Shown piece by piece: positions 3,001 to 64,000 of a stretch of 64,000 bases of DNA. The DNA is taken from contig NC_041788.1 of the NCBI RefSeq assembly GCF_900090045.1, positions 372,001-436,000 of the forward strand. The letters run 5' to 3'. The notes beneath the pieces are model-generated. The model saw only the letters and a list, made by a program, of their open reading frames with translations. It ran no database searches and was not told where the DNA came from. Origin of the DNA: Plasmodium malariae. Its lineage: Eukaryota; Apicomplexa; Aconoidasida; Haemosporida; Plasmodiidae. The first letter of the stretch is position 1; each line of letters starts with the position of its first letter. Made by a program: the position numbers and the translations under genes.

Positions 3001-4525
3001 ATATAATGATACATATGTGTAGATGTGGTGATACTATTTATACAAAAATTACTTAAAATTCCAGTTAAATTTAAAAAGTGTATATATAAAATTTGTTCTG
3101 GAGTGAACCTAGTATAACATCTTGAAAAATGTAAAAAGTTTTTGTATATACTAAATGGGTTTAATGAATCAGTATCAGATTCTTTACTATTTAAATTAGT
3201 TATATCTTCACCTTCAATTGCAAAATGACCACTATTATATATGTTACATTTAGTTGTATCACCACATATAAATTTGAAGAATTCTCTTTTTGTATGTGTA
3301 TGTTCTAAAAATAAATTGGGTTTAAAATTATCTTGATAAATATTTATAAGTAGCGATATATGATATCTATTAAAATTGTGAACCAAGAACTCTAATATAT
3401 TACATTCATCGAATGCTAATCTTCTATTATCACTCAAATAATTTCTTCTTCTTTTTTTTTCTATATTATATAAACTATTGACATTACACATTGAATCAAG
3501 TGTTTTAAACCTATCTGATATATTAAAACTTAAGAGTTTTTCCCAACTAAAAAATTTCACATCTCCTAATACAAAAAAATTATTATATTTCCTAAGGGCT
3601 AAATTTAGGGTAACAAAATGTCCTAATGCTATAAACATAAAAAAAAAAAAAATAAAATATAAAAAAAAAAATATAAAAAAAAAAAATAAAATAAAATAAT
3701 TTATTCTAAATTTACAAATACGATCATAGTAATACCTATAAGATGTGAACCAACTAAGTTATACAAAGATATGCCAAAATGACGTGACAACTCATCTAAC
3801 TTATTCATGAAATCAATATTATCATTTGTTGTAAAAAATAAATCATTCGAATTCTGTATTTTTAACAAATCATCACCTATTATTGAATATGAATATACAT
3901 TTTTTTTTGGCTTTATTTTCTTTATATCATTAATATAATTTAAAATACTTTGAAAATACGATTTAGAATATAATTGCGAATTCTCTTCTTCTTTTTTTTC
4001 ATCCTTTTCCACGAGGATATCATTTAATGCCATCAGTGATTTCTTTAAATCTTTTGTTTCTTTATAAGAATCCATGGGTATTAACATAAATTTTACAATT
4101 TTTAAAGATCTTACAAGTAAACTCTTTTTCTTATATAAATCTGCTTCCTCTGCATTATAAGTTTTCACCAGTTGCTGTTTCGTAATATGTTCATATTTTA
4201 TTAAATCCTGAGCACTAGCACTTATATTAGGTATAACATAATCAGTTTCATTTTCTATACCAACATTATGCTTAATTATGGTAAAATTAGACATATTTAG
4301 ATATTCCGAAACCCCTGGATTTAATATGGGCAATTTTAATTCATCGTGTTTGAAAAATTCTATTATTAACTTTTCTGTTGTTAATAAATTATTATATAAA
4401 TCATCATTGGCAATCATATATTTTAATTGTTCAATGTTATCTTGATTTGTATAACAAGTTACTTTTTCCCATATAAATATGACCGCAAGCAAAATGAACA
4501 TAGATATATTAAGCAGTTGCACCAT
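1..4525 (-). CDS. clag: CLAG / RhopH1 cytoadherence-linked asexual protein, 5' eight exons (3' end outside window)
   Basis: CLAG proteins are the RhopH1 subunit of the rhoptry RhopH complex, delivered to the infected red-cell membrane and needed for the nutrient channel (PSAC). Exons inferred from splice sites and frame: 3736-4525, 3053-3628, 2866-2919, 2665-2727, 2206-2523, 1826-2019, 912-1678 and 1-723, about 1160 codons seen; the family is usually 1300-1450 residues in nine exons, so the last part lies off the left edge. Exon 1 opens with a signal peptide ([17 protein letters not shown]). Family-typical stretches are [14 protein letters not shown] joined to [50 protein letters not shown] and NDKI joined to [17 protein letters not shown]. 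Two oddities: the intron after exon 3 starts with GC, and exons 5 and 6 do not join in frame. It could therefore be a recent pseudogene, or functional with one sequencing error. Family call very secure; intactness unsure. Confidence 0.93.
2728..2865 (-). other. Non-canonical GC-AG intron of the CLAG gene
   Basis: On the minus strand exon 3 ends ...TTCAATG and the intron begins GCAAAGG, ending TTTTTTTACAG. Only this junction keeps the frame open and joins LYLPGYFN to AIELTF. The nearby GTGAGT, a better-looking donor at 2899, gives a stop four codons into the next exon. See findings. Confidence 0.7.
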
Positions 4526-6394
4526 TTTTTACAATTATTTTTCCATATATCCTTTAAAATTGTTGTCTTATATTAATTTAACTTATAAAAAAAATAAAAA
4601 AATACTAAAAATTTACTAAAATGCGTCGCGTAATAAATTATTATTATCATATTGAAAAAGAATAAATAATTGTATTATTTTTTATTTTTTCTCCTTACAA
4701 ATTATGTTAGATTTTTTAGAGTATTCCTCTTTTTTTGATAAACACTGTAATTTCAATGTTCGTATGAACTGTGAAAATACAGATTTATTTTACTTTTATA
4801 GATTAATTTTCCTTGACAATTATGCATATATGCGCATAATTTTTTTATTTTAAAAAATGTTTGCGCTACTTCAATTTTTAATAAATATTAACTTAAAAAA
4901 AATATTTTTTTACACCATTTTTTTAGCTAGTACAAATATTTTTAATTGTAAAATTATATTTTTCTGTACGTAAAAAATAATAATAAAATGATAACACAAT
5001 AATCTAAATTTTGTCAAATTTATAAAGTGAAACAAATAAAAATATAAAACGTAGAATTCAATAAATAAAAAATATACACTTTAGTTTAACTTTTTTTTCT
5101 GGTAAAACATTTTTAAAAAGTATTGTTTTTACGCGCACGTATTTTATTTCTATTTTGAAATGATATAAATGAATTTTTATGTTAAATCTGCGTTGTAATC
5201 AAGGAAATTCATTTATATATGTATTTTCCACAATTTGTTTTTTTTTTTATATAATATAAAAATATATTTACTTCTATATGCATGTATTAAGATATGTAAA
5301 GACACTTTAATATTGGTTGTAAACACATATATTTATTAAACTTAAATTAATTATATGATATTTCAAAACGTAAAAAGGAAAACTAATATGGGAAATATAT
5401 ATCTCCAAAATTAAAAAATATATTATTAGACGGTACATCTCTGTTACTTCAAATATTCAGTAAAATACTATAAAATATAATTTTTCTTGTTATAACGCCT
5501 TTAAAATATTTTACGTATGTTTAATCAAGGATATATAAGATAAATAGCAATATAATGGAAGTTATTAATTCATAAAGAATATTATATAATTTCATTTTTT
5601 ATTAACTACTTTACAACTTGTTTAATATATATTTCATACATTGTGGTTTTCAATTATATTGCTTCATTTTACATATATATTATTTTTTTGTGTGTATATA
5701 TTCACCAAATTTTTTATTCGTAGTAAAACCCAAAAAAATATTATTCAGGTACTTCAAGCAGATTTTGTTTTTTACTCTTTCAATTAATTTTTTTTTTTCT
5801 TTCTTTTTTTTTTTGTATTCCCTTTTATTTAAATTTACTTGTTTATTTCACTTCTCAAATATCATTGCTTCCGTGATAAAAACAATTATAAACGCCACTA
5901 TCATTTTGGCACCATTTGTGATTATAATTCTAACTTATGTCGTATTTTTCGCTTCGCATGTGAACTCTAAGGTTTTTTTATATTACTGGTAATGCACGAA
6001 TTTATATTACATAACACATATTACTTTTATATCTCCTTAGTTTAAAATTTTAATATTGTATAATTTTTTTATAGGACGTTTGTAACATGCAACATTGTTC
6101 AGGAGATGTACATGTAATGAATAAATAAACTTGGGTAGTTATTTATTTATCTTATACATCTTAATCATTTTGATTTTTAATTTTAACTCTAATTTATTAG
6201 CATTTTTTTTTTGTTGTTTTTTGTATACATACTGTTATAATTTATGTTGGAATCTTTTTTTGTGTATTATTTTAACATATATATTTCCGTGAATGAAACT
6301 ATATTAACATTTTCCCTCATTTTTGTATAATTCTTTATCTAACAGTTTTCCTGAAGTCTTCCTATTAATTTTTTAAAATTTGTTATAATTATAC
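4526..6394. other. Intergenic, presumed CLAG 5' flank; no gene supported
   Basis: Very AT-rich sequence upstream of the CLAG start. An open frame at 5618-5992 (+) is almost entirely Phe/Ile/Tyr/Leu from T-rich tracts. It has a hydrophobic tail (about 5870-5980) that could be an old transmembrane exon, but nothing decides this. I see no splice-linked coding sequence. Confidence 0.5.
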
Positions 6395-26987: not shown

Positions 26988-27921
26988 ATGAATAACTACA
27001 GCTTGTTTATTAATGTTCTTACATTTATCCTTTTAAATCTATCATGGAGTTGTTTTAATAATGTAGGATTATAATAAATAATTATACGAACGAATAATAT
27101 GTATTATATACTTTTTATATTATTCTTGCACTGTTGATTTTAAATTGAATATTTTTCTGTTAAATATATGAAAGTAAAAAATATTTTTTTTATACGTTGT
27201 ATTTCGTCGTAATTTATAGATAACAACTACGACCTTTGGTAAATCATGGAATAACAACAATCAAACTAAAACGTCAGATGTAAGGACTATAAGATCACTA
27301 AGTGAACGTGAAGGAATGGGACGCCATAAACCAAATAAAACAACAATGAAAACTGGAAATTCACAAAATGCGGACAATGGTGAAAATTATGATGAAAGTC
27401 GATATGATGCTTTAACACAGGATTATTATGACATGATGGAAGACGATATTACTAATGGCAGAGGATCTTCAGTATCGTTATTGGAAATGATTAACAATAT
27501 AGATCCAAAAGCCCAATTTACTTATTGCCTAGATAAATTATTTACTGAAGATAATGATGGAGAATATGATAATTATAGTAATGCTCCAAAGAAGAGGAGC
27601 TTAGGAAACTTTTTTAAAAATATAAATAAAAGAGTTGAAAATGAAATGGTTAGTTTAATTAATTCTGGAATGCAGGATAATGGATATAATACGAACGGAA
27701 AGAAAAATAAGGCACGTAATTTAAAAAGTTTTTTAAAGAAATATAAATTGTTATCAGCAGTTGGAATATTAGGAATTCTAGGATTATTTTTTAGGTTTGC
27801 ATCACAATATACCAACCTTGGTTATGGAATTCTAGTTATTTTTGCAATTTCCGTAGCTTTTGTTTTGTTCAAGTATATGAAGGTCAAAAAACGTTTAAAA
27901 TTTAAAAATAAGCATGCATGA
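26988..27921 (+). CDS. Plasmodium exported protein, PEXEL plus two TM segments, 258 aa
   Basis: Exon 1 (26988-27062, 25 codons: MNNYSLFINVLTFILLNLSW...) is a signal sequence ending at AAT|GTAGGA. Exon 2 (27220-27921) begins after TTTATAG in phase 0 with ITTTTFGKSWNNNNQT. RSLSE at residues 50-54 is a canonical PEXEL, so cleavage in the ER and export into the red-cell cytosol are expected. The middle is acidic (DYYDMMEDD), then a Lys-rich segment, then two hydrophobic helices (LLSAVGILGILGLFFRF; GYGILVIFAISVAFVLF) separated by a short loop, and a basic tail (KVKKRLKFKNKHA). Signal exon, an FGKSWN-like start, PEXEL and a C-terminal TM hairpin match the two-TM exported families of vivax/malariae/ovale-type subtelomeres, which are thought to sit in Maurer's-cleft-like or caveola membranes. 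Intact, with no premature stop. Exact family and function unknown. Confidence 0.85.
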
Positions 27922-30855: not shown

Positions 30856-31885
30856 ATGGCAGTTTTAAGCAAATACAATAAGAAAGAAAAGAAAAATGCT
30901 TTTCTCTTTTGTACGAAGTTATCTGTGTGTTACTTTTTATTTTGGGTCCAAAATTGCGCAAACTCGGTAAGATATATAACAAAACACCAACCCCCTAGAA
31001 CATCTTTTAATTTTTCTAATTCAATTAAAATTATTTTTCATACTATGTTATTATGTAATATATTTTTTTTTTAACCATATATATATTATATATATATATA
31101 TATATATATGTTCATGAATATATAAAGAAATTCTTACCATACTTAAAATTTTATATAACATTTTGCCCAATTTTTAGTCTGAATATGATGGTAACTCCAA
31201 TAATGTAATGATTTACAATCATGGAAAAATATCAAACATACGAGTAATGAGATCCTTAGGGGAAACAAAAAAAAATTCAAAGTCAAAGGAGGAGGATATT
31301 GTGAAAAAACTAAAACGTGATAGACTTGAAAGTAGTTTTTTACCTAAAGCATTTCATGATATATATGATGTCGACAAGACATCAGCATCTGGTGCTCCTA
31401 GATTTCCTGAATGGTACAAGAATAACTTTAAATTTGACGAAGAAACAATAGAAAAATTGTTTAACAGTCATCGTAAAGGAGCGATGGAAGGAGATCCAGA
31501 ATGTCTTGCAAAATATCCAAAGGGTTATTGGGATCCATATTTTGCATTATATGGAAAGGGTAGTAAGTCTACAAATAAACAAGAACAAGCAGAACAGCAA
31601 CAAGAACAACAACAGGAATTATATAAGTATATGCTGAAGAATAATTTTAAAGATGTTCCAGATATAGAAAATGTAGATGCTGACATAAAGAAAGGACAAC
31701 CACATGTAGTAAGAAGTTATGGACAAATAGATAACTCCACTGACACTTCCATTACTTCCGCTGCCGCAACCGCCCCTTCAGCCTCTGCTTCCGCCGTAGA
31801 TTCCGCAGCAGAAACAGCTGATGCTACTAAAACACAAGAACAGAAGAAAAAGAAAAAGAAAAAATTTTTTTTTTTTAAAAATTAA
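30856..31885 (+). CDS. Plasmodium exported protein, PEXEL, soluble, 272 aa
   Basis: Exon 1 (30856-30966, 37 codons) carries a recessed hydrophobic signal (AFLFCTKLSVCYFLFWV) and ends at TCG|GTAAGA. Exon 2 (31178-31885) begins after TTTTTAG in phase 0. RSLGE at residues 62-66 is a canonical PEXEL. A conserved-looking globular block follows with clustered aromatic and Pro/Gly residues (FPEWYKNNFKF; ECLAKYPKGYWDPYFALYGKG), then a Gln/Glu tract (EQAEQQQEQQQE), a Ser/Ala/Thr-rich tract coded with unusually high GC, and a Lys run ending in Phe codons made by A and T homopolymers. No TM segment after the PEXEL, so the product is probably soluble or peripheral in the host cell. Intact. I do not recognise the globular block. 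It lacks the Trp/Leu pattern I would expect of PHIST. Confidence 0.83.
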
Positions 31886-44314: not shown

Positions 44315-45325
44315 TTATTGTTGGAATTTTGGTGTGTTATCAGTATCATTCTTTTCATTTTTATTTTCTTCTATTTTTTTTAGTTTGAAGAAAATATATG
44401 TTACTACTACAAAAAGAGCAGTTAACAATATATTTGAAACATGTTTTTTAAAATTCTCTGAAGTTAAAATGGTAAAAATCATTAACAAAATAGGTGGTGT
44501 AATAATACTGTAATTTTGTACATAACTATTTATTAACTGAGTCCTTACATCAGCATTTTGTGTTAAATTGGTTTCCGTATTTGCTCGTTCAGCTTCTTCT
44601 TTTATTCTGCTTTCCATAGATGAATCTAATTTTACTAAATACTGTTTTACATTTTCTGAAATACCATCCCAGTTAACAGCATTTTCTACTTTTTCCTTAA
44701 CAGCATTCTTAAAATCATTAAATTTTCGTTCAATATCCTTAATGTTTAGATCAAAATTTTGTGAACTGCGTGAACTTTGGGATCCTTCTTCATTTTCATC
44801 TTGTGTTCTTTTTGCTTCTCTCTTTCGTTCAGATTTTTCCCTTTCATTATTTTCTGCCAGTGATCTATTGGTTACAAAACTTACTGCACTTCCATTACTA
44901 TGCTTCTCATTACATGAATTGCCAAATTTATTCAAAAAATAAAAAAAGGGGAAATAAAAATATACAGGTTTAATAGGGATTTAAAGATATATATTCAATT
45001 TTCGTAAAAGGGAAAATTGTAATTTTGAAAATAAAAAAAATAGAAGAATTCAAAAAAAATTAATAATAAACAAATAAAAACTTATTTTAAAAGATTACAG
45101 AAAGTTTTTTATCCTTACATCATTGTAAGCACATTGTAGTGTCCAAACAAAAAAGGTAAATAAGAAAATTTGGGTAAAAATGAGAAATAAATTCATTTTT
45201 TCTCTTTTTGTTTGATTATTTCTTAAAGTTTTCATATCTGCCATCTTATTAGGACTTCTAGCTACATAGTTGATGCATTCATAAGCCGTTGCACTATTTG
45301 AGGTATTCTTATTTTGCTTAAACAT
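44315..45325 (-). CDS. Plasmodium exported protein, PEXEL plus two TM segments, 265 aa
   Basis: Exon 1 (45119-45325, 69 codons) has a long polar N-terminus and a recessed hydrophobic signal (MNLFLIFTQIFLFTFFVW) ending AYND|GTAAGG. The best exon 2 start is 44905, after ATGAG and a C/T-rich tract, in phase 0, giving KHSNGSAVSFVTN then RSLAE (residues 83-87), a canonical PEXEL about 14 residues into exon 2. A strongly charged region follows (ENNEREKSERKREAKRTQDE), a helical segment with VNWDGISENVKQYL, then two hydrophobic helices (YSIITPPILLMIFTILT; VSNILLTALFVVVTYIFF) and a basic/acidic tail. Same overall architecture as the 27-kb gene on the other strand. Intact. The acceptor choice is the least certain point, because the pyrimidine tract lies about 25 bases before the AG. 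Host-cell membrane location inferred; function unknown. Confidence 0.83.
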
Positions 45326-48111: not shown

Positions 48112-49116
48112 TTATATAAAGCGTCTTCTATTTGGTTTACAAAATATTAACAAAGATAGTACAAATGCAACAAAAAATAGAGGTATAATATAATTCTCTG
48201 CTTTAAAACATATACATGCAAAGAAAGCGATCATAGCTATAAAAGCAATTCCTCGATAAAAATATTCTATTATTGTTATAATCTTTCTCTTTTTCCTTTT
48301 TTCTATATTTTCTTTAGAAAAAGGGTCTTTATCTGTTGTGTAATTTGCTTCATCGCCCATGTAAAATTTTAATAAACTACATTTATTTTTTAATATATCA
48401 TCATTAATTTCTACATTAATAGTTTTTCCTGTTAATGAATCTAAATTTCGTCTATATAAATCTGTATCATCATTTTTATCATTATAATTAGAACTCTTTT
48501 CTACATTGTCCATATGGTCTTTAGATACTTCACCATTTGACCTGAATTCCTTAATTTCGTTTTCTGATTTAAATTCATGTTTTTTTTTTTCATTTGGTTC
48601 TGAATTTGTTTCTTCTGGTTCTTGAATCTCAACATAATCAACTGTAACTAGTAATCTGTAAGGTCTTAAAATTAATGTGGCATTTATTCCTTTTGCTTCA
48701 TCATATACGCCATAATGTGAACGCTAAAAATTGAGTTAAATGTTGTACATAATGCATCAGTGTATATATATATATATATATCCTTTTTCAAACTTTATGA
48801 AATTTTAATAATATATATAAATAACAAAGCAAAATGCAGAACAACAAGATTAACATATAAATATAATTTTATTTCCTACATTACTGTTAGAATAAAGTAA
48901 TATCCAAAGGTAATGTGTAAATAAAAAATATTTAATAAAAAATTTTGTTTTATCTATTTTTTTCCTCTTATAGCTTTTGTTTGAAATCACATAATTTCTA
49001 GCAATTAAACGTTTAGTCACATACTCGTTATAATAACTAAGTTTAGTATTATTTAATATACTATTGTTTTCTCTTGTCATTATAAAATGCTTTGAATTTT
49101 TAAAATAACACTTCAA
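48112..49116 (-). CDS. Two-exon, two-TM exported-type protein with non-canonical PEXEL, 282 aa
   Basis: Exon 1 (48880-49116, 79 codons) has a basic N-terminus and a recessed hydrophobic stretch (FFIKYFLFTHYLWILLY), ending NSN|GTAGGA. Exon 2 (48112-48723) begins after TTTTTAG in phase 0 with RSHYGVYDEAKGINATLILR. Where a PEXEL would be expected (residues 102-106) the sequence reads RLLVT: Arg and Leu are in place but the fifth position is Thr, not Glu/Gln/Asp. An acidic Glu/Lys/Asn region follows, then a basic patch (KRKKRK), two hydrophobic helices (GIAFIAMIAFFACICF; YIIPLFFVAFVLSLLIF) and the tail CKPNRRRFI. Architecture matches the neighbouring exported genes, so export is likely but not assured. 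Intact. Confidence 0.8.
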
Positions 49117-51204
49117 TTTTATACATTAAATTTTCATTGTTATTTATGTATTCTATTTAATATGATACACATACAGAAATAATTTATTTGATTTTTATTT
49201 TCTCTTTAAAAAATTCAAGTCCAAAAAAAAAATAAAAAATAAAATAAAAAAACAATTAAAATGCATAAAAGTAATACATAATAGATTAATGTCTACAGAA
49301 CAACCAAACACAGATACTTAATAGTGAATAATAAATAATAAATACATAAATATGAATAAGGAACAAAGGATATACTTACTACTAAATAATTAATAAAAAA
49401 TAAACTTGTAAATAATAAACAAAATATAAACTTACTAGAAAATAATGAACAAAAAATACTTCATAGTGAATAATATAGAATAAATAAGCTAAAGTGGGTA
49501 AAATACAATAAATATTTAATAGTGAGTTACAAACAATAAATAATTAAAGGTGAATAATAAACGATATATAATTAATAATGAGTAACAAAAAGTTAACATT
49601 GTAAATAATAAATAACAGCTGATAAAAAGAATATTATATAAAAAATTCAGAAAAATTAGTTCAAATCAAAAAATTCAGTAAAAGTACGTTAAATGTTCTA
49701 GGTTTATAACAGAAATTATAAAGTATTTACATTTTATTGAATATAATGAACAGATCGCAATCATTTTAATGATAATAACACAATAACTTAAATACTAAAA
49801 AATAATAGTTCATATTTCTTATTTATTTTGGCTCTTTTTTAAGTTATAATTTATATTGTATATATAATATATTAGTAATTTTTTATTTTAAAAGGATATA
49901 ATATAAAAAAAGAAAACTCGGTAATGATTAAAATAGAATTTCATATATCTTTTAAAGCTAGTAGTACAACTTTACGTAGTCTCATAAATACTTTAATTGT
50001 TTTGGACTCAAATTTGTATTTTTCATATTATATAGTTGAGATAATACTTTATAAATTTAATAAATAATAATGATATAAAACTATTTTAGCATGATATAAG
50101 TTGGGCAATCTATGTAACATACAACTAAAAAGCATTATTACGCATTAATTTTTAAATGTAAATTATTCACTAATAATGTATCGCCATAGAGAAGTTCAGG
50201 AAATAAAATTTTTTCTCATGTAATAAATAAATATGATATATATGTACCATATTAATTTAATTTTTTTTTTTTGTAAAGAAGTATTATCTTAATAATTTAT
50301 TGTATCTAATTAAAATATGTTTTCTATAATATTAGGACCAAAGTTATACTGTAACAGTCATGAAATTAAAATATAAAAAATGAATTGTATTATGAAGAAA
50401 TAATCTTACAATTTAAAAAAAGGCAATCAATATGATTGTAAAAAATATAAACTTACAACAAAAAAAACAAAAAAAAAAAAAACAAAAACAAGATAAAGAT
50501 AGAATAAACATAAAATAAAAACACATTAAATAAAAAAAAATTAATTTAATGGTTATATTGAAGTACTTGTATGACAGAAACCACTTCATATTTATTTTTT
50601 TTGGCAACACAATTTTAATGATAAAAATAACAGAGTTTGGAATTAAAATAATTTATAAAAATGATAATACCTAACTTTTAAAGTCAAAATGATAAAAAAA
50701 AAAAAAAAAAAAAACAATATAACATTTAGTTTAACATGTCTACTATAAAGGATCATATATAAATATAATATTAATATGAACAATGCTTTCTCTGTTATTG
50801 ATTGTTCACACCTATTTATGTTCTACAATCATAATACAACATTATGTGTACCATGAACTTGACGTGAACCTCATCCAAATACATTACTATCAAACAAAGA
50901 AAAGATAACTAATATTTTTTTAATACAGATATATTTTCTATCTGTATTTCTTATGTCCTTTTTTGCTGTAAGTTACTGACCTAATTTTTATATAAATAAT
51001 AAAATATTCAAAATGGAACAAAAGATTAAAATTTTCATCAGTAAACTTATTTTATAAATTCAAAAACAAAACATAAGAAAAAAGATAATAAATGTAAATT
51101 TATAATAATTACTGCTGCAATGTACCTTTGAAAAAGAAAAGCCTTTGTATGAATAAAATAATTTTTTTTATTACTATATTTCTTTTCCTTTGGAAAAAAA
51201 TGCA
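49117..51204. other. Non-coding region with degenerate repeats
   Basis: No gene supported. The left part is repeat-like (see 49310-49640). An open frame at 50413-50610 (-) is Phe/Leu/Cys/Ser noise opposite A-rich sequence. Poly(A) at 50695-50714. Confidence 0.5.
49310..49640. repeat. Degenerate A/T-rich tandem repeats (AATAGTGAATAATAAA-like)
   Basis: Variants of the words AATAGTGAATAATAAA, ATAAACTTACTA and AATAATGAACAAAAAATAC recur at irregular intervals through this stretch, giving a blurred array. It has no coding potential and is probably an old satellite-like repeat in the 5' flank of the 48-kb gene. Confidence 0.6.
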
Positions 51205-51475
51205 TTTTTATTTGGAATTAACCTAACTAAAATGTATTTTCATATAGATCAATCTATTTAACCAAAATGTATTTTTATATAGATCATTCTAATTAATTAA
51301 AATGTATTTTCATATAGATTTATCTATTTAACCAAAATGTATTTTTATATAGATTTATCTATTTAACCAAAATGTATTTTTATATAGATTAATCTATTTA
51401 ACCAAAATGTATTTTTATATAGATCATTCTAATTAATTAAAATATATTTTTATATAGATCAATCTAATTAATAAT
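51205..51475. repeat. 35-bp tandem repeat array, about 7 copies
   Basis: The word AAAATGTATTTTTATATAG recurs at 51229, 51264, 51299, 51334, 51369, 51404 and 51439 (the last reads AAAATATATT), an exact 35-bp period. Between words comes AT(C/T)(A/T)(A/T)TCTATTTAACC or its variant ATCATTCTAATTAATT. A diverged partial unit precedes it from about 51205. Copies differ by a few substitutions and never in length. Confidence 0.92.
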
Positions 51476-52344
51476 TGGTATGTACCTTATATCAATATTT
51501 ACAATAAAAAATAGTAATGAAAATCTGTAATTATATATTGTCACTGTCAAAATGAGAATGGCATAATTTCAAGAAAATATATTTTAGATTTTAAATACTA
51601 TTAATAAAAGCTTTTTCTTTTTTTTTTTTTTTTTTTTTTTATACATACATAACCGCTGTATAAAAAACCACAACCAAAGTGTACACTGAAAATGCGAGCT
51701 AGTCATTTGAGCTTTTTTTTAAATATATTTACTGGTATATTGTTATACATATATATATGTGATGAACATTTTTTATATTTCATATATATGTACACACATG
51801 TATAAAAGTAGATGTGTCTAAAAAATATTAAGAACAAAACTAATGGTTAAAAATAAAGAAATAGTACTAATTTTGTGTAAATATAGGGAATGTAACTTAA
51901 AAAGTAATATGAAGATTTCTATATATTTATCTGATAAAATAATTTTAATTCTGAAATTTACGCCTTCTGAAAAAGTGGTCTTTATTACATTTTAAATAGA
52001 TTTCTGTTTATTTTTTAGTTGCAACAATACCCCTAATATAGAATAAAACTAATGTTGCTACAATATATATCTGTCTCATGAAGTCATTTGTAGCATAAAT
52101 TTTTACGAAAAAAATAAAATAATATACAAATTTTTATAACATTAAATGATTTTAATATTATAGAATTTTTTTTATTAATATTTTTCTTCTTACTGTAAGT
52201 CACGAAATAAGATGTAATGTTAGGAAGAATAACGAACATTTTAGTAAAAACTTTTTCTAAGAATTATTTTAGGCATTTTAAAAAAAAGCAGTAAACATAA
52301 TATTTTATGAAAGCTCAAATGATACATCCAATTCGACAACAAGA
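51476..52344. other. Intergenic, upstream of the 52-kb decayed gene
   Basis: Poly(T) tract at 51617-51640 and no coding signal until about 52285, where the frame leading into the 52345 ATG becomes open (YESSNDTSNSTTR). Confidence 0.45.
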
Positions 52345-53196: not shown

Positions 53197-55372
53197 GATA
53201 TACATAATTAGAGGAAAAATATAAAAAAAAAACACATTAGTGAAAATATTCGAAGTTAAATAAATTTGTGAAATTTGTTAAATTTGTTAAATCTGCTATA
53301 TTGGTTTTATAAGTTAAGTTGCTTTAATTGCTTAAAATGTCTTGCTCGATTAAGATTCTTAAACTGATTACTCAGCATAGTTGATAACTATAAAAGAAGT
53401 TCATTTTGATTTTTATATTTATATACAACCAATACATACCTTGAAACACACAACTGATAGTCTAGTAATTTTTAAAATATATTAGGCCAACATAATTTAT
53501 GGTGGTAGTTATTATAATAAAAAAAGGTTGTACTTTTATTATTTGGATTCTTCGTGTTTCATTAGCATATGTTATAATTCACTCACTTGTGTCGATGAAA
53601 ACACAGAAATTGTAACTTTGCGTACAAAATATACATATTATGCATACATGTAATATTCTTAGTGTCAAAGGACTACAAATGCGAGTAATTCCTCCTATAT
53701 TTTTACCATCGATTCTACGTAGGTTTACCATCCTCCATTTAGATCATTAATTATATTTTTGTGTTATGTTTAATCAATGTTAATAATATCTCCATATTTT
53801 ATTTTATTCACAGAAACTTCATACACATTTAAAAAGTATAACAACTTATTTTACTAATAAAGGAAAGAACTATTTTACACTCCAACTTCACCCCTACTTC
53901 AAAAAAAAAAGAAAGGCGGGAAACTTATTAATAGTGTTTAAAATAACCCTCAAGAATAAGGGGAAGCTTATTAACAGTATATAATATAACGCTAAAGAAA
54001 AAAGGGAAACTTATTAATATAGTATAATATAATAATAAACAAAAAGCTGAAACTTATTAATAGTGTTTAAAATAACGCTCAAGAATAAGGGGAAGCTTAT
54101 TAACACTATATAATATAACGCTAAAGAAAAAAGGGAAACTTATTAATATAGTATAATATAATAATAAACAAAAAGCTGAAACTTATTAATAGTGTTTAAC
54201 ATAACTCTAAAGTAAAAGGGGAAGTTTATTTATAATGTTTTATAACGTTTGTAGTGATATGGAAATGGAACAAAGGACATATATGTAGTAGTCAAAGGAT
54301 GAAACAATTAAAAAAGAAAAAAATATACACTAACTGATAGTAATATGAAATTTATTTAGAGTGAGAAATATGGATATATAGATATATGCGTTATTCTCTA
54401 TATATTAAAAAGAAAGTTATAAAAAATTTCAATTTCATAATTTATCTGCTATGTAAACAGTATAAATACACTGACAATTAAATTAAGGATCTATAGTTTA
54501 TATTCATTGATAAAATATAACCTTTTTTTTTTTTCTTATTTGAATTATCGATAAATACTATTACAATAATGTCTTTAGCACAATGAACAAATTACATAAT
54601 AATATTTCTCATAATATCCCTATGCAATATGACAACATTAGGTACATAGAAATAAGAAAAAACAAAATTAACATAGAAAATTGGAAATATTCCTAAACAT
54701 ACATATAAATATAAGCTAACATAATAATTAAGACATTCTTGGTAACCAATTTTATAATATACTGTTAGTATTTAATTGTACGTATATACAATAAATTTAA
54801 TTTTATATTCTTTCTCGCACATTATATGCAAAATTAAAGAAAATAAGTTTTTTTCTTTTTTTTTCCTTTCTTTTGTTTTTGATGTTTATTAGAAAATTTT
54901 TATATACTAATCAGTTTTTTTTTTTTTTTTTCTCTTTTTGAATAAATAGCTACAATAAATACTACTACTTACGATAAGAACTCTTAAATACGTAAACTTC
55001 TCACTATAAAATAAACTCATAAAGTAATACAATAAATTACATGGTTAAAACATGATGTATAATGAAAAAAGTTCAATTAAACACACTACAATGTTTAAAT
55101 TTATTTTCAACAAAAACGTACACAAATATATATAATATATATACAACTAAAATATTCCATACTTCCAATTACTTCAATAATTTCAGTACCTTCATAATAC
55201 ATATTAAATAACATATTATATGTATATAAAAAAGAAAAGATGCGTGGAAAAAAAAATAATATAACGCACACGATTCTTTATATATGTTGAAAGGTGTTAA
55301 AAATAACTTCATTAATTAAGAACTACTAGTGCAAATGTGTAGAGTGGATCAGCAAATGAAAGTCAGAAATCA
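53197..55372. other. Intergenic region holding a 129-bp repeat array
   Basis: No gene supported. It contains the array at 53915-54240. From about 55000 the sequence resembles the 3' flanks of the tandem gene family to the right, so the duplicated unit starts here. Confidence 0.5.
53915..54240. repeat. Higher-order tandem repeat, 129-bp unit made of three about 43-bp monomers
   Basis: GAAACTTATTAATAGTGTTTA begins at 53920, 54049 and 54178, an exact 129-bp period. Inside each unit three related monomers share a core (G/A)GGAA(A/G)CTTATTAA. The second starts with AATAAGGGGAAGCTTATTAAC and the third with GAAAAAAGGGAAACTTATTAA. The first two 129-bp units are nearly identical (differences such as CAGTATA/CACTATA, ACCCTC/ACGCTC); the third is partial and more diverged. 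Non-coding. Confidence 0.9.
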
Positions 55373-56140
55373 TTACTTCATATCAGATTGCGAGTTTACA
55401 CTGAAGAATGCATCTGGTTTATGATGGTCTTGATCTTCAGGACTTTCATATTAGTATTTTGATCGTATGAATGTAGATTCTCTTAGTATATCAACAAGGA
55501 AGCTCCCAACTGTAACTATATTATTATGGATCATTTCCGGTGAATATTTGATACATTTTTCTTTTTCATAATCATTTTTAACTTTTTTTATTTCATTTTT
55601 ATTGTAACACATTTTTCTTTTATCTGGATACTGTTTCGCACTGTAGACCTTCACAGACATTTCCTCACCAACTCTTTGTTCAATCCAAAAAAAAATTTCG
55701 CCCTGCTTCAAATATTCTTCTGTTAAAACACCTTCAATCACAAATGAATTAAGACGCTTTTTTATTCTGCTAACACAGTTATTCTTGGATTCGTCGTCAA
55801 CAAATTTATATCCATACTTTTTTTCAAATCCGCGTAAAACTGTTAAAATATTTTCGGTTTTCTCTATTTCTAAAAACATTTTTGCTTCATCAGCACCATA
55901 TAGCAATAATTGATACAAAAGGTCAAATGATACATTAAACTCTACATTTCCCAGTTTCTTAGCTTCTTCTGTAACATCATCCTTAAAGTATTCATAGTTG
56001 TATTCACTCTTCTTCTTATCCTTAGTATGTGTTTTTGCAGCTTATCCCTTAAATGGACGTTCCTTCATGTCTCCAGCAGCGCACTTAGTAAGTGCACGCA
56101 TAAAGAAAATTTGGATTTGTAAATAGGTATATATATTCAT
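55373..56140 (-). pseudogene. Secreted-protein tandem family, copy 1, two in-frame stops
   Basis: A 256-codon frame runs from ATG at 56140 to TAA at 55373, broken only by TAA at 56042-56044 and at 55451-55453. The start MNIYTYLQIQIFFM is a signal peptide aligning with the intact copy. The conserved core is YGYKFVDDESKNNCVSRIKK, then LTEEYLKQGEIFFWIEQR. Note Leu where the other copies have Cys in EEYCKQ. No frameshift is visible, and sequence after each stop still matches the family (SPEDQDHHKPDA after the second). So it is barely dead, and may be alive in other isolates. Family function unknown. Confidence 0.8.
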
Positions 56141-56521
56141 GGCAACTAATTAATTCGTAGACAGTACAAATATTCGAGAATACGAATGAGTAAAAATAAA
56201 TTTATTATTTTCTAAAGGAAAATTCTCCAAAAGAAATATATACTTAAATGTGCATTATATTAGCTATAAATATTCCAAAGTAACAGGTAAAATAAAGGCA
56301 TCTAATATACACACCAACAAAAAATATATAATAAAATATATCCTTAAATGATTGGAGAAATAAAATGTTTTCTAATTCGTTGTAAAATTATTTTCTTTTA
56401 TGCTTTCATTAAAATGTTTATTCATTTATAATTATATTGTATAAATCATGAGATATATCGTTTTCTATTTCAATATCTTCTTTAATTTTAAAAGCACAAT
56501 AATATTTTTGAATATTTAAAA

Positions 56522-56563
<42 letters not shown>

Positions 56564-57421
56564 TGTTATGAATTAATATTGTTTTTAAAAAAAAAAAATT
56601 AAAAGTACATTAATTTTTTTTTTTTTTTTGGGATTAAAATTATTAATGAGTTCTATTAATCGATAGATTCGGCTTATATATAATTATTTCCCTTATATCT
56701 AAAAAAATATGCTCAAAAAAAATAGTAAATTTTACAGTATTTTTATTTTAAATACTTATAATCCATAAAATTTAAATAATATATTTTCTCCATGGATAAT
56801 AAAATTACACATCATACACATTAATCCATTACTTGGCAAAATATGTATTTTATTTACAATTAAAAAAAAATAATTCATTTAAAAAAAAAAAAAATTGCCT
56901 TATTATTCTTATTCGTACTTTGTTTAATATAGTACTATATATCTATGTTAAATAAAAAAACTATGGAGCTTTTCTGTCTTTTTTTTTTTATTATTTTAAC
57001 TGCATTTAATTTAACTTCAACTTTAGTTACGAACATGTAAAAAATTAAAATTCACAATTAAAAAAACTCAAAGAACTGTAAATAAATAACCATATGGTTA
57101 AAAAACTATTTATGGAGAACAAAATGTTCAATTTAGTACTTTACAATTTAAAAATTCTTTTAACGAAAACGTACACACATACATATGGGGAACAAGAATA
57201 CTACAAAAGTTCTAACACTTAAACGTTTTCATTAACTTTTTAATACAAACTTAATTACATACTACTCGTATAAAAAAAAGGGCTCAACGAGAAAAAAATT
57301 ATTTAGCACTCACAATTATTTATATATATTTAAGGACGTTCAAGAAAAAATCATTAAAATATTAATGGAAAAATAATGCTCTATACATTATGCCGAGAGG
57401 AGAAGCGATGAAAATCTGGTA
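56141..57421. other. Intergenic part of the tandem unit between copies 1 and 2
   Basis: Presumed promoter of copy 1 and 3' flank of copy 2. It holds (AT)n at 56525-56560, poly(A)/poly(T) blocks at about 56587-56630, and the flank motifs shared with the other units. No coding signal. Confidence 0.6.
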
Positions 57422-58489
57422 TCAGTTTTTATCTTCAGTAGTCGAGTTTTCTTTTTCTTTAACTTCAGGTTTTTTATGGCTTGAATCTTCTGGATTAAAA
57501 TATATTGGATCTAGAGGTTCAAAATGACTTGGTTTTTCTGATTTTTTATGGCTTGGATCTTCTGGATTAAAATATATTGGATCTAGAGGTTCAAAATGGC
57601 TTGGTTTTTCTGATTTTTTATGGCTTGGATCTTCTGGATTAAAATATATTGGATCTAGAGGTTCAAAATGGCTTGGTTTTTCTGATTTTTTATGGCTCGG
57701 ATCTTCTGGATTAAAATATATTGGATCTAAAGGTTCAAAATGACTTGGTTTTTCTGATTTTTTATGGCTTGGATCTTCGGGTGCTACGGGTAAGACCTTG
57801 GATGGTACTACTATTTTGGATGTTCTTAATACATCAAGAAGGAAATTCTCTACTGAACTAACAACACCATCTACCATTTTTTCGGAAAGTTTTACACTTC
57901 TACCTTTTTCTATAGAACCTAAAAGTTTTTTTATTTCAGCTGCATTATGACACATTTTCTTTTTCTCTTCCTCTGTTTTTAGTTTATCTACCTTAGCAGA
58001 CATTTCCTCATCTAATCTTTGTTCAACCCAAAAATATTTCTGTGCTTGTTTGCAATATTCTTCTGTTAAAATGTTTTCCATTACAATCAAATTAAGACGT
58101 CTTTTTATTCTGCTAACACAGTTATTCTTGGATTCGTCGTCAACAAATTTATATCCATACTTACCTTCATATTCATTAAGAATTTCTAATATCTTTTCAG
58201 TTTTCTCAATTTCTAAAAATAGTTTTGCTTTATCAGCACCATTTGGCAATAATTTATACAAAATGTCATTTGAAGCATGAAACTCTACATCTCCAAGTTT
58301 CTTAACTTCTTCCTTAACTCCGCCATTCTTCAAATGATCATATGTATATGCATAAGGTAAAGCATTTTCTGTTTTTAAATTTAGTCCCTTCTTCTCGGCT
58401 TCCTTCATGCATCCAGCTGCGCACTTAAAAAGTGCGTATATAACAAAAATTTGGATTTGCATAAATGTATATATATTCATAGCGAACAA
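57422..58489 (-). CDS. Secreted-protein tandem family, copy 2, intact, with 24-residue repeats
   Basis: Single exon, 355 residues from the first ATG. The ATG at 58480 (fourth codon, MNIYTFMQIQIFVIYALFKC) aligns with the start in other copies and is the likelier one. A signal peptide covers the first 25 residues. The conserved domain spans about residues 60-230: YGYKFVDDESKNNC (111-124), LTEEYCKQAQKYFWVEQR (141-158), EEMSAKV, then CHNAAEIKKLL. Four Cys lie after the signal start. From residue 248 come four 24-residue repeats (EDPSHKKSEKPSHFEPLDPI...) and a partial fifth, then a charged tail ending KENSTTEDKN. The protein is secreted, with no TM, PEXEL or GPI signal that I see, so parasitophorous vacuole or merozoite surface is a guess. 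Only full-length intact member in view. I do not recognise the family. It lacks MSP7, MSP3, RAD or PHIST signatures as I know them. Confidence 0.88.
   Translation of the reverse strand: MFAMNIYTFMQIQIFVIYALFKCAAGCMKEAEKKGLNLKTENALPYAYTYDHLKNGGVKEEVKKLGDVEFHASNDILYKLLPNGADKAKLFLEIEKTEKILEILNEYEGKYGYKFVDDESKNNCVSRIKRRLNLIVMENILTEEYCKQAQKYFWVEQRLDEEMSAKVDKLKTEEEKKKMCHNAAEIKKLLGSIEKGRSVKLSEKMVDGVVSSVENFLLDVLRTSKIVVPSKVLPVAPEDPSHKKSEKPSHFEPLDPIYFNPEDPSHKKSEKPSHFEPLDPIYFNPEDPSHKKSEKPSHFEPLDPIYFNPEDPSHKKSEKPSHFEPLDPIYFNPEDSSHKKPEVKEKENSTTEDKN
57470..57785 (-). repeat. 72-bp coding tandem repeat, four copies plus a partial
   Basis: The unit (plus strand TTTTTATGGCTTGGATCTTC...) recurs every 72 bp, encoding a 24-residue repeat rich in Pro, His, Ser and Lys. 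Copies are almost identical at DNA level; differences are single bases such as ATGGCTT/ATGACTT, CTAGAGG/CTAAAGG and CTTGG/CTCGG. None of the other tandem gene copies shows this array, so it expanded after duplication. Confidence 0.95.
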
Positions 58490-59730
58490 TAAATTTGTTC
58501 CTTAAAAATTTAGGAATTCGCAAATAAAAATAAATTTATTATTTTCTAAAAGCAAATGTGCTAAAATAATGCAATGCACTTATACGTATGATTTATTTTA
58601 TTTATAAACTTTCCGGGCGTATGTAAAAATATATAATACACAGTAATAAAATTAATACAATAAAATATAAAACTTTTATTCGTTTAAAGGAAAAATATTT
58701 TTTTTAAAATTCGTTTAAAATTTATATTTTCCTATGGTTAAGAAAAAAGTTTATGTATTACACTCTTATATATATAATAAGATATGTAGTTTTATATTGA
58801 TGTATCCCCTATTTCGTTTAAATTCTTAAGTGAATCTTAAAATTTAAAATAAAAATAAAATTTTTTTTTTTTTGTGTCATAAATTAATTACAATTTAAAA
58901 AAAAAAATAAAAACACATTAATTTTTTTTTTTTTTTAAGTTTAAATTCTTAATTTATTATGAGTTCTATTTCAACATATATTTATTTTATATATATTATT
59001 CTAGTTTTTCCAAAAAAAAAATAAGCTCAAAAATGCGAGCAAAATATATAACATTTTTCCTTTATATATTTCTGAACTAGATATATTACACTTGTATTTT
59101 TCTTTATGATATAATAAAATTGTGCATTAAATGTCTGCACTTCGTTTTAACTAGATAAAAATAATATATAGTTTATAAACAATTGGAAAAGGAAAAAATT
59201 CCTTTACAAATACAAATATTACTATTTTTTTGATTCCATTTTCAGTAATATAGTAGTAAATAACTAGGTTAAATAAGAAATAAAAGACCTTATTGCTCTT
59301 TTTTCATTTTTTATTAAATGAGTGCACTTCGAACTTACTTTAAAAATTCTTAAAAACATAAAATTCAAGATTAAAAAAACTCAAAGAAATGCAATAAAAT
59401 ATTATTTTGTTAAAAAATAAAATGCATTATGAAAAAAGTAAAGTTAAATATACTATACAAATGTATCAATATATTCTTAATGAAAAACTACACATTATAT
59501 AAGTGAAATAAAAAAAAATTCAAAAGTTCTCTGCACATTTATATTTTCTGTGCTGCTTTAATTCAAACTGAACATAAATATGTAAAAAAAAAAAAAAAAA
59601 GAGCAACGAAAAGAGAAAAAAAGTAATTTAACACGTACGACATATTATATATTTTAAAAATTGTTAGGAAAAAACTTTAAATTATTGAATGAAAAATAGT
59701 GATATACACATTATAAGTTGGCTTTGCAAT
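58490..59730. other. Intergenic part of the tandem unit between copies 2 and 3
   Basis: Presumed promoter of the intact copy 2. It has poly(T)/poly(A) blocks near 58860-58935, the shared 5' flank motif near 58943, and the shared 3' flank of copy 3 near 59375-59500. No coding signal. Confidence 0.6.
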
Positions 59731-60510
59731 CTAAGTTATGAATCGGTTTTTCTTATCATTAATCGAGTTTTCATAAGGGGGTTCACTATTTTTATGAGGT
59801 TTGTCTTCATGTTTTTCGGGTGACTGTTTACATTGTACTTTTTTTGGATTATTTTAAAACATCTAAAAGGAAGGACACAAGTGTAGTAACATTATTGTAT
59901 ATCATTTCTTCTGAAAGTTTTATACTTATACCTTTTTCCAAAACACATATGAACCTTTTAATTTCAGATTTATTTTTGCTCATTCCTTTTTTCTCCTAAC
60001 TTTTCTGCTTATTTAGAAAAAGAGCCATTTCCTCATTAACTCTTTGTTTAATCCAAAAAAAATTCTCAGCCTGCTTGCAATATTCTTTTGTTAAAACATC
60101 TTCAATTACAATAAAACTCAGGCATTTTTTTATTTTAATGATACAGTTATTCCTGTATTCGTCATCATTAAATTCATACCCATACGTCACTGGAATTTAT
60201 TCAAAAATATATAAAATATTTCCAGGTTTCTCTAATTTATAAAATATTTTTCCTTTATCAGCACCATATATTAATAATTAGCACAAAAAGTCAGTTGATG
60301 CATTAAACTCTACATTTCCAAGTTTTTTAATCTCTGTAACTTGACCAGTCATCATATAATCATACAAGTAGTCATAGGAAAGCTTTTAATAATTATGAAA
60401 TGTTACCATTCCATTATGTCTAGTATTAGGTGCTCTGAATTTCCAGCTGCACATTTAATAATTGCGTATAAGAGGAAAACATGGATTTGTAAAAAGGTAT
60501 GCATATTCTT
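59731..60510 (-). pseudogene. Secreted-protein tandem family, copy 3, decayed
   Basis: The position of the family start codon (60508-60510) reads AAG instead of ATG, followed by a recognisable signal region (FLQIHVFLLYAIIKCAAGN). The frame then breaks several times. The best preserved block is 59996-60190 (YGYEFNDDEYRNNC; VLTKEYCKQAENFFWIKQR), and the C-terminal end at 59731-59800 keeps ENSINDKKN. At least two frameshifts and several stops. No 24-residue repeats. Confidence 0.8.
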
Positions 60511-61809
60511 GGCTAACAATAAATTTGTAAAAGAAAAATTAGGAAGAACATGAATCAAAATAAATTTTTTTTATTTAAGAATATTAAGCAAAATTCTCTA
60601 AAATAATGCACTTAAATGTTTTATATGTGTACACATTCTGCAATAGTAGGTAAATAAATTAACTAGAATGCAGCAATAAATTTAAATGATAAAATAAAGA
60701 CTTCAGTATTTTAAAGAAATAAAATATATTTTTAATATTCTTAAAATTTATAATTATTCATGATTTATGAATAGAATTCATTTAGATGAAACCATAATAT
60801 GTAAATTATATATGTTGTTCCATATTTCTAAGCCTTGTTTCAATTGTAAAATATTATGTTTAGTAATTTTTGAAAGGAAAAAAAAATGATTTTCTTTTTT
60901 ATTATGAATTAATTTTCATTTTTTTTAAAAAAGCAAAAATGAATTATTAACTTTTTTTCTTTTTATATTTGAATTCTTAATTATTGTAAGTTTTTTTATT
61001 CCATGATAGATGCCTATTATATATATTATTATGGTTTCGCTAAAGATATATTCTGAAATATACTAGTAATGTAATTAACATTTTTCTTTTAAATGGATAG
61101 TTCTAGGCAAGTAAAATTATATCAGTACAGTTACTGTATAGTAAAATAAAATTATGCATTAGATATATCTCCTTCACCTATTTATAGACAAGAAAATATA
61201 TCCTTTATAAACAATTAGAAAAGGAAAACATTCCTTTATAAAATGCAAAATTACAGTTATATTTCTTCATATCGTTTAAAAGCACTTCGAAAAGGAAAAA
61301 ATTCCCTTATAAAGACAAATAATTACTATTTTTTTTGTTCTATTCTTATTATCTTACTATATTTCTATATTAAACAAGAGATATGAGAAATCTATAACTC
61401 TTTATTTTTATTAAATAACTACAGTTCACTTCAACTTAAGTTACGAATTCATAACATAAAATTCACAATTAAAATGACTCAATAAGATATTCAAAAAAAA
61501 TATATGTGGTTAAAAAAGAATGTATAATGAATACATATCAATTAAATACAATTCAAAAGAATAAATTTATTTTTAAGGAAAACTCACAAATTATAGAAAT
61601 ATGGACTATAAACATATGTCAAATATTCCATAAATTTGATATTTATAATATCTTCTCAATGAAGGTTTAACCGTGTATTATACATGTTTAAAAAATAGAG
61701 ATATACAGATATAAAAAAAACTATTTAACCCTCACAATTATTTATGTAGTTTAAGACGTGTTAGAAATAAGTTTAAATTATTAATAGGATACTCGCATTA
61801 TATATATTA
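60511..61809. other. Intergenic part of the tandem unit between copies 3 and 4
   Basis: Shared unit flanks as in the other copies (5' motif near 60970; 3' motif near 61565). A short duplicated phrase (TTTATAAACAATTAGAAAAGG / TTTAAAAGCACTTCGAAAAGG, each followed by AAAA-CATTCC or AAAATTCCC) occurs at 61203 and 61275. No coding signal. Confidence 0.55.
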
Positions 61810-62584
61810 TTCGGAATGGATAGGAAAGGAAGAACTTGCATTCCCTTTTCTTGTCAGTAGTTCTGTTACTACCTGGATCTTCTGGTTTAATGGGTAAACT
61901 TTAGGATTGTAAAATTATTTTTTACTTCTTATTACATTATTGAGGAAGTTTTCAATTGTAATAACAGTACTGTCTTTAATTCAATCTGGTAATTTTATAT
62001 TTCTTTTTCTAAAATACATAAAAGTCTTTTTATTTCATCGTCGTCATTACCCATTATCCTTTTACCTTCATCAGTTTTTTGCTTATCTACCTTAACGGAC
62101 ATTTCCTCATCTATTCTTTGCTCAATCCAAAAATAATTTTGAGCTTGTTTGCAATATTTCTCTCTTAAAACACCCTCAATCACGATTGAATTAAGACACT
62201 TTTTTACTCTGTTAACACAGTTATTCTTCGATTCTTCGTCAACAAATTTATATTCATACTTTTTTTCAAATCCTCGTAAAACTTTTAAAATATTTTCGGT
62301 TTTCTCTATTTCACTAAATATTTTTTTTTTTATTAGCACCATGTGGCAATAATTGATACAAAAGGTCAATTGATGCATTAAACTCTACATTTACAAGTTT
62401 CTTAATTTCTTCTCTAAGGAGGCCACTCTTATAATAATCATTTGTATTCGTAGTTCTTATCACCCACTCTAACTGTTATGCGCTCCTCTATGTTAGATTC
62501 TTCTTCGTTCATGCATCCATCAAAGCACATAAAAAGTGCGTATATGACGAAAATATGGATTTGTATAAACGTTTATATATTCAT
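61810..62584 (-). pseudogene. Secreted-protein tandem family, copy 4, decayed
   Basis: The ATG at 62584 is followed by a TAA at codon 4, then a family-like signal region in frame (QIHIFVIYALFMCF). Further stops and a frameshift follow. The core block 61995-62330 is well preserved (KYEYKFVDEESKNNC; VLREKYCKQAQNYFWIEQR; EEMSVKVDKQKT), ending at TAA 61995-61997. A remnant of the C-terminal region reaches to about 61850. No 24-residue repeats. Confidence 0.8.
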
Positions 62585-63807
62585 AACTAATAATAAATTT
62601 ATAGATGGAAAATTATCTAGTATGTAAATAAAAATAAGTTTATATACTAAAAGTATTCCAAATTCTCTAAAATAATGCACTTATTGATGCGTTATATTAT
62701 CTATAAACTATAGAGTACTTAAAAAAATATATATGCTATTCAGAGATAAAAATTTCTATAGTATAATACAAGAATTTCAATAGATTATAGGAATAAAATA
62801 TTTTTTATTTAGTTGAAAACTCATTCTTTCATAATTAAAAGAAGGGTTCATTTATATATATCAGTATTATATATATATTGCTAAATTAATGGTTTTATAT
62901 ATTAATATATCCCTTTTAATTTTTGTATTTAAAATGGTATGTTTGAAAAATTTTGAAAAATAGAATAAAAAAAAAAAAAAAATTCATTATTAATTTTTTT
63001 GTGCCTTTTAAATTTAAATTCTTAATTATTATAATTTTATTCCTTAATAGATGCCTTTAATATAAATTATTCTTGTTTTACTAAAGATCAATTATGCTGA
63101 AATACTCCAGCAAGAGATACAACCATTTTCTCTTTTGAATAATTTTTTGTAAGATTCAAAAATTATAGCTGCATTTTTTCCTCATAGTAAAAAAAAAACT
63201 ACGCATTAATTATATTACTTCACTGATTATTAAGAGAAATATAGAGTTTATAAACAAAAGAAAAAAATATTTTATAAATATAGAAAATTTAATTTTTTTT
63301 TCATCTAATTTATTTAATATCTTTTTATATATCTTGGTCAAAAGAGAGAACATATCATATATCTACTTTTTTTTATGCATAAAAAAAATACATTTTCACG
63401 TTAACATAAGTTACGAATTAGTAAAAACGTAAAATTCATAATTAAAAGGAGTCATAAAAAAATGCATTAAATTATGTAGTTAAAAAAAAATGATGCACGA
63501 AGAAAAAAGAACAATTAAAAGAACTATACAAAATTATAAATTTATTTTCAACAAAAAATTGCATAATATATATATGAATTAAAGTGCCTCAAAAGATCTA
63601 TCCTCATCCATATTTTCCGTATCGCTTTAATGCAAAGATAAAAATAAATTATGCATAAAAATTGGAAGAGAACATAAGAGAAAAGCATCCTTAAGTACAA
63701 ATAATTATTCATACATCTTAAAGCGTGTTACAAAAATATTTGAATTATTAATAGAAAAATAGTGGTGTACACATTATAACGAGTGATTTGGTTATCCCAG
63801 TAGTGAG
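62585..63807. other. Intergenic part of the tandem unit between copies 4 and 5
   Basis: Same unit flanks again (5' motif near 63017, 3' motif near 63540). No coding signal. Confidence 0.55.
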
Positions 63808-64000
63808 TCAGTTTTTCCTATCAGTAATCGAGTTTTCTTTAAGGGATTCATATGGTCTACGTGGTTGATCTTCAGGATTTTCGGGTATTTTCATGGGTTC
63901 TTCATTTATGGTTATTCTTAAAACATCAAGAAGGAAATCTTCAATTGTAATTATGGTATTTTCAATCATTTCTTCAGAAAATTTTATATTTTTATCTTTT
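63808..64000 (-). CDS. Secreted-protein tandem family, copy 5, C-terminus only (runs off window)
   Basis: The last 63 codons and the TGA of a fifth copy are open: IKFSEEMIENTIITIEDFLL, then LDVLRITINEEP, NPEDQPRRPYESLKENSITD and a final RKN. This matches copy 2 (SEKMVDGVVSSVENFLLDVLR) and the shared C-terminal motif ENS-x-T-x-x-K-N, without the 24-residue repeats. No stop or frameshift in the visible part, so it may be a second intact member. Its 5' part lies beyond 64000. Confidence 0.8.
   Translation of the reverse strand, partial: KDKNIKFSEEMIENTIITIEDFLLDVLRITINEEPMKIPENPEDQPRRPYESLKENSITDRKN

Follow-up and report, generated by a model that had tools for sequence, protein, structure and literature searches.

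A tandem array of leader-bearing Pfg27-domain genes in Plasmodium malariae and the possible secretion of their products

Introduction

The Pfg27 protein of Plasmodium falciparum (gamete antigen 27/25; structure 1N81) forms a dimer and is expressed in early gametocytes. It has been described as a phosphoprotein of the cytoplasm that binds RNA, and its deletion as leaving normal development in only a fraction of gametocytes (PMC2880792); it has been located in both cytoplasm and nucleus (PMC4053738). A 2010 review gave P. reichenowi as the sole species with a known orthologue (PMC2880792). The legend of Extended Data Fig. 1c in Rutledge et al. 2017 (PMC5326575) counts 22 Pfg27 copies in P. malariae, 20 of them functional, against one in P. 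falciparum, and cites 17 for an earlier paper. The family and its expansion in P. malariae are already known from print. Here we compare with these systems a cluster of minus-strand genes at one end of a 64,000-nucleotide (nt) stretch of P. malariae DNA (the window; C14:372001-436000). An earlier note on this DNA had taken the cluster for an unrecognised family of secreted antigens, an interpretation that is partly supported by the present analysis.

Results

A 22-gene Pfg27 array extends beyond the window

The genes in the window belong to a tandem array of 22 Pfg27-domain genes and form its downstream end. Membership of the family (PF09216) was taken as a score over the Pfam cut-off of 25 bits. 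Copy 2 scored 79.9 bits and copy 5 63.7 bits, while the pieces of copies 1 and 4 scored 64.7 and 48.2 bits, and copy 3 reached 49.6 bits with its stops read through by the tool. The PDB match was to 1N81, and the all-helical fold is that of Pfg27. The array genes are therefore members of the Pfg27 domain family. The earlier note had stated that its proposal would be refuted if the family clearly matched a named Plasmodium family of known function; such a match, to Pfg27, was obtained, and the term "unrecognised" has to be dropped.

Across the assembly (33,612,066 bases, 62 contigs), all 23 listed Pfg27 matches exceeded the 25-bit cut-off. Twenty-two of them share a single orientation at C14:427487-471783 and form the array, which runs past the window edge; the remaining one lies on contig C4. 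As in Rutledge et al. 2017, 22 copies are found on one contig, and we regard this as the same array. Within the window, five minus-strand units occupy the last 9 kilobases (kb). A 300-nt core repeat starts at window positions 55647, 57990, 60015 and 62089, with spacings of 2343, 2025 and 2074 nt, and the later three cores are 74-81% identical to that at 55647. The fifth unit is truncated by the window edge and its 3' end yields a D6 repeat at 63896. The tandem arrangement of five same-strand units, as first noticed, is thus borne out by the core repeats together with the fifth gene (L011).

Sixteen of the 22 copies are intact

An unbroken frame from leader start to stop, of 222-352 codons, was found in 16 of the 22 copies. 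Among the six interrupted ones, L016 and L017 carry multiple breaks, and L005, L019, L022 and L023 have in-frame stops only. The legend cited above counts 20 functional copies (PMC5326575) against our 16 unbroken frames; our guess is that counting these last four as functional would yield the published number. In L005 and L019, one such stop interrupts the linker that joins the leader to the domain.

Copy 1 (L005; 55373-56140, minus strand), which is position 1 of 22 in the array, is a broken gene with a domain piece at 55451-56041 (E 1.3e-17). Its leader, at 56140, is separated from the domain by an in-frame stop, and a second stop lies ahead of the C-tail. Copy 2 (L004; 57422-58480, minus strand; E 2.7e-22) is intact, with a single frame of 352 codons encoding a leader (residues 1-23), the domain (about residues 45-231) and a C-tail with 24-amino-acid (aa) repeats, which correspond to the 72-nt tandem repeats at 57464-57823 on the minus strand (repeat D2). 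The P. malariae record P0001 begins at copy 2 residue 25, has one 24-aa unit fewer and is otherwise identical over its 304 aa. Copy 3 (L016; 59731-60510, minus strand) is broken: its start codon is altered, its frame changes, and it contains several stops, three of them within its Pfg27 match. In copy 4 (L017; 61840-62584, outer ends approximate, minus strand), also broken, frame breaks place leader and domain in different frames; the largest piece is at 61995-62378 (E 1.4e-12). Copy 5 (L011; 63808-64000 and continuing past the window edge, minus strand; E 2.5e-17) appears in the window as the 3' end of a gene that is unbroken over 254 codons when read from the genome. The earlier assignment of copies 1, 3 and 4 as dead, copy 2 as intact and copy 5 as perhaps kept agrees with these frames. 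The sequence motifs that the note ascribed to all units fit its description in copies 1 and 2, whereas they have drifted in the others.

A conserved leader and three cysteines distinguish the array

All 16 intact copies open with a hydrophobic leader, exemplified by that of copy 2, MNIYTFMQIQIFVIYALFKCAAG. In leader sequence alone, each of them departs from the leaderless, intracellular falciparum-type protein. The comparator is P0011 (217 aa), a record from Plasmodium sp. gorilla clade G1, a member of Laverania. Unlike the array copies, P0011 has no hydrophobic leader and lacks cysteine at three positions where the array carries it. These positions, copy 2 residues 121, 143 and 177, are cysteine in 16, 15 and 14 of the 16 intact copies, respectively; P0011 has Ile, Ile and Met there, and the C4 copy Met, Leu and Ile. 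Judged from these two outsiders, the three cysteines were probably gained within the array. They would fit an oxidising compartment, in which their pairing is putative.

The ratio of nonsynonymous to synonymous differences per site (pN/pS) was 0.62 for the leader, 1.05 for the adjoining linker and 0.79 for the domain (domain interval 0.69-0.90), and the leader value fell below that of the linker in 4953 of 5000 bootstraps. Nine of the 16 intact copies have no Met at residues 6-62, and two more have Met18 alone. The PEXEL motif R.L.[EQD] was found near the leader in none of the 16, its sole instance being inside the L012 domain. The array thus differs from the PEXEL-exported families (fam-l, fam-m, PHIST), in which the motif follows shortly after the leader, and the earlier observation that no PEXEL accompanies the leader holds. 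The presence of the leader on the array copies and its absence from the falciparum-type protein may be the less appreciated point of this expansion. Three papers name Pfg27, malariae and a signal peptide together; in the article text of one of them, PMC5326575, the single signal peptide mention appears to concern fam-l and fam-m.

Divergence and species range

In the tree of the array, full support was obtained for the groups of copies 20-21, copies 6-8 and copy 11 with 13. L018 and L020 have nearly identical domains and different leaders, a pattern that gene conversion or unequal exchange would produce. Synonymous divergence (dS) of the domain was below 1 in 117 of 120 pairs; nonsynonymous divergence (dN) was 0.2-0.62 in 111 of these 117. 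The dN/dS ratio exceeded 1 in 10 of the 117 (listed range 0.22-1.23). The pooled domain pN/pS is 0.79, and positive selection is not claimed.

In three protein searches for relatives, the rows bearing a species name came from P. malariae and P. brasilianum, apart from a single one from the Plasmodium sp. gorilla clade. So far, then, the family in tandem form has been met in few species, as the earlier note proposed; this does not show its absence from other Plasmodium, because relatives are picked up through 5-residue words in common and one search scored only 7995 candidates.

Discussion

The array shares domain, fold and probably locus with falciparum-type Pfg27, and differs in copy number (22 against a single copy in the PMC5326575 legend), leader and cysteines. 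From the observed family, fold, copy number, breakage, common leader and common cysteines, we think it probable that the array grew by local duplication and that its copies are secreted and act outside the cytoplasm near the gametocyte. The conditional part of this proposal is that the leader routes the paralogues into the secretory pathway, together with the role that follows from it. Repeated local duplication with patchwise homogenisation would have built the array, copies dying in place. The leader would then direct the paralogues to the secretory pathway, unlike falciparum Pfg27, as small helical and possibly disulphide-stapled proteins of the parasitophorous vacuole or of the outer region of the gametocyte-infected cell. 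There they might help to keep the gametocyte intact while their sequences diversify. It is because of the leader and the cysteines that we prefer a role in secreted form close to the gametocyte. More tentatively, and at somewhat less than even chances, leader, new cysteines and diversifying array may together mark the retargeting, in the P. malariae lineage, of an intracellular RNA-binding gametocyte protein to the secretory pathway, giving a Pfg27 family that is secreted where gametocyte and host meet.

Several points count against this reading. High-scoring hydrophobic N-termini are common here, being found in 24 of 67 ATG frames of at least 45 aa in window 1-54000, real genes included. Since such N-termini are frequent in this AT-rich DNA, hydrophobicity alone proves little and the argument leans on conservation. 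The pN/pS of the leader fell below that of the domain in just 4426 of 5000 bootstraps, and its bootstrap interval overlaps those of linker and domain. Five of the 16 intact copies have a Met within residues 25-62, from which translation could start later, and the library proteins P0001, P0012 and P0013 are drawn from such a downstream Met, in which case they would have no leader. The conserved cysteines are three, an odd number for pairing. The copies are related, so that counts such as 16 of 16 are not independent observations. Ten of the 14 inner branches of the tree fall short of the support mark, and the 17-22 group is weak (81/93). A search for P. malariae expression data found none, and passages of two papers on the subject make no mention of Pfg27 or gamete antigen. 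Finally, GTAC, the core motif of AP2-G, is not enriched upstream of 21 of the 22 copies (L017 left out), with 16 observed against 18.1 expected.

In the same upstream regions the longer forms G.GTAC/GTAC.C numbered 3 against 3.4 expected, and the promoter scan lends AP2-G control no support. TGCAT/ATGCA occurred 50 times against 29.8 expected, the maximum of 60 first-order resamples being 46; this excess is not independent evidence because the upstream regions are homologous.

The late-starting records, the shared fold and the cytoplasmic RNA binding and cytoplasmic and nuclear location reported for the falciparum protein (PMC2880792, PMC4053738) speak for copies that keep that role, with a leader that is unused or non-functional and an expansion for dosage. 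However, nine intact copies offer no Met at residues 6-62, the leader is more constrained than the adjoining linker, P0011 lacks the cysteines common to the array, and the high domain dN is unlike a dosage expansion. A retained role with expansion for dosage is therefore doubtful in our view, and cytoplasmic RNA-binding proteins are an unlikely description of the array copies. Less probable still is that the array is mostly in decay, selection on it having relaxed and little of its function surviving. The six interrupted copies, the domain pN/pS of 0.79 and the ten pairs with dN/dS above 1 would suit it, but most frames are intact, leader and cysteine columns are conserved, and the domain pN/pS interval stays below 1. 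A wholly new secreted antigen family, as the earlier note had it, would agree with the few species, the leader, the tandem array and a C-tail repeat number that varies between records. A new family is ruled out by the Pfam match over the cut-off (copy 2, pieces of copies 1 and 4), the 1N81 match and publication of the expansion as Pfg27, which leaves that proposal next to no probability. The word "antigen" survives as a family label, gamete antigen 27/25, and no sign of host exposure was seen here.

With a working leader, P. malariae would expose numerous diverged forms of what in P. falciparum is an intracellular protein. Pfg27 markers and functions would then not be transferable between the two species, and the array would be a natural test of the role of the Pfg27 fold outside the cytoplasm. 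If the leader does not work, this is an ordinary and already published gene-family expansion. Leader and cysteines are the part of the array worth following.

Genomic setting and neighbouring features

A UIS3/ETRAMP gene (L024) lies about 8.4 kb past the far end of the array, with at least one Pfam-less frame between. The gene next to Pfg27 in P. falciparum is UIS3-like, and on this basis the array most likely sits at the Pfg27 locus.

The 23rd Pfg27-domain gene (L001/P0006; C4:1007592-1008089) is divergent and lies outside the array. It encodes 335 aa with a hydrophobic N-terminus of its own and a C-terminal Pfg27 domain (E 1.2e-25), which lacks Cys at all three positions where the array has it. 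In the frames that were scanned, the gene sits between ETRAMP and PRESAN genes. By gene order, it is possibly the counterpart of P. falciparum PFB0115w (PF3D7_0202400). PFB0115w is likewise described with C-terminal homology to the Pfg27 fold, but also as P. falciparum-specific (PMC4053738), and its length is given as 1192 aa (PMC5679621) against 335, both of which argue against equivalence.

Directly downstream of the array, 35-nt and 43-nt tandem repeats occupy window 51189-51506 and 53902-54245. Subtelomeric-looking frames were seen at 27220-27921, 31178-31885, 44315-44980 and 48112-48723. That at 44315-44980 has a weak Fam-L/Fam-M match below the cut-off (E 0.0011), the sole Pfam match of 27220-27921 is weak and unrelated, and 31178-31885 and 48112-48723 have no Pfam match. 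At the opposite end of the window, CLAG (cytoadherence-linked asexual protein) pieces were found on the minus strand at 1-4528, where three frames were scanned; they follow the order of the profile, which fits exons of one gene.
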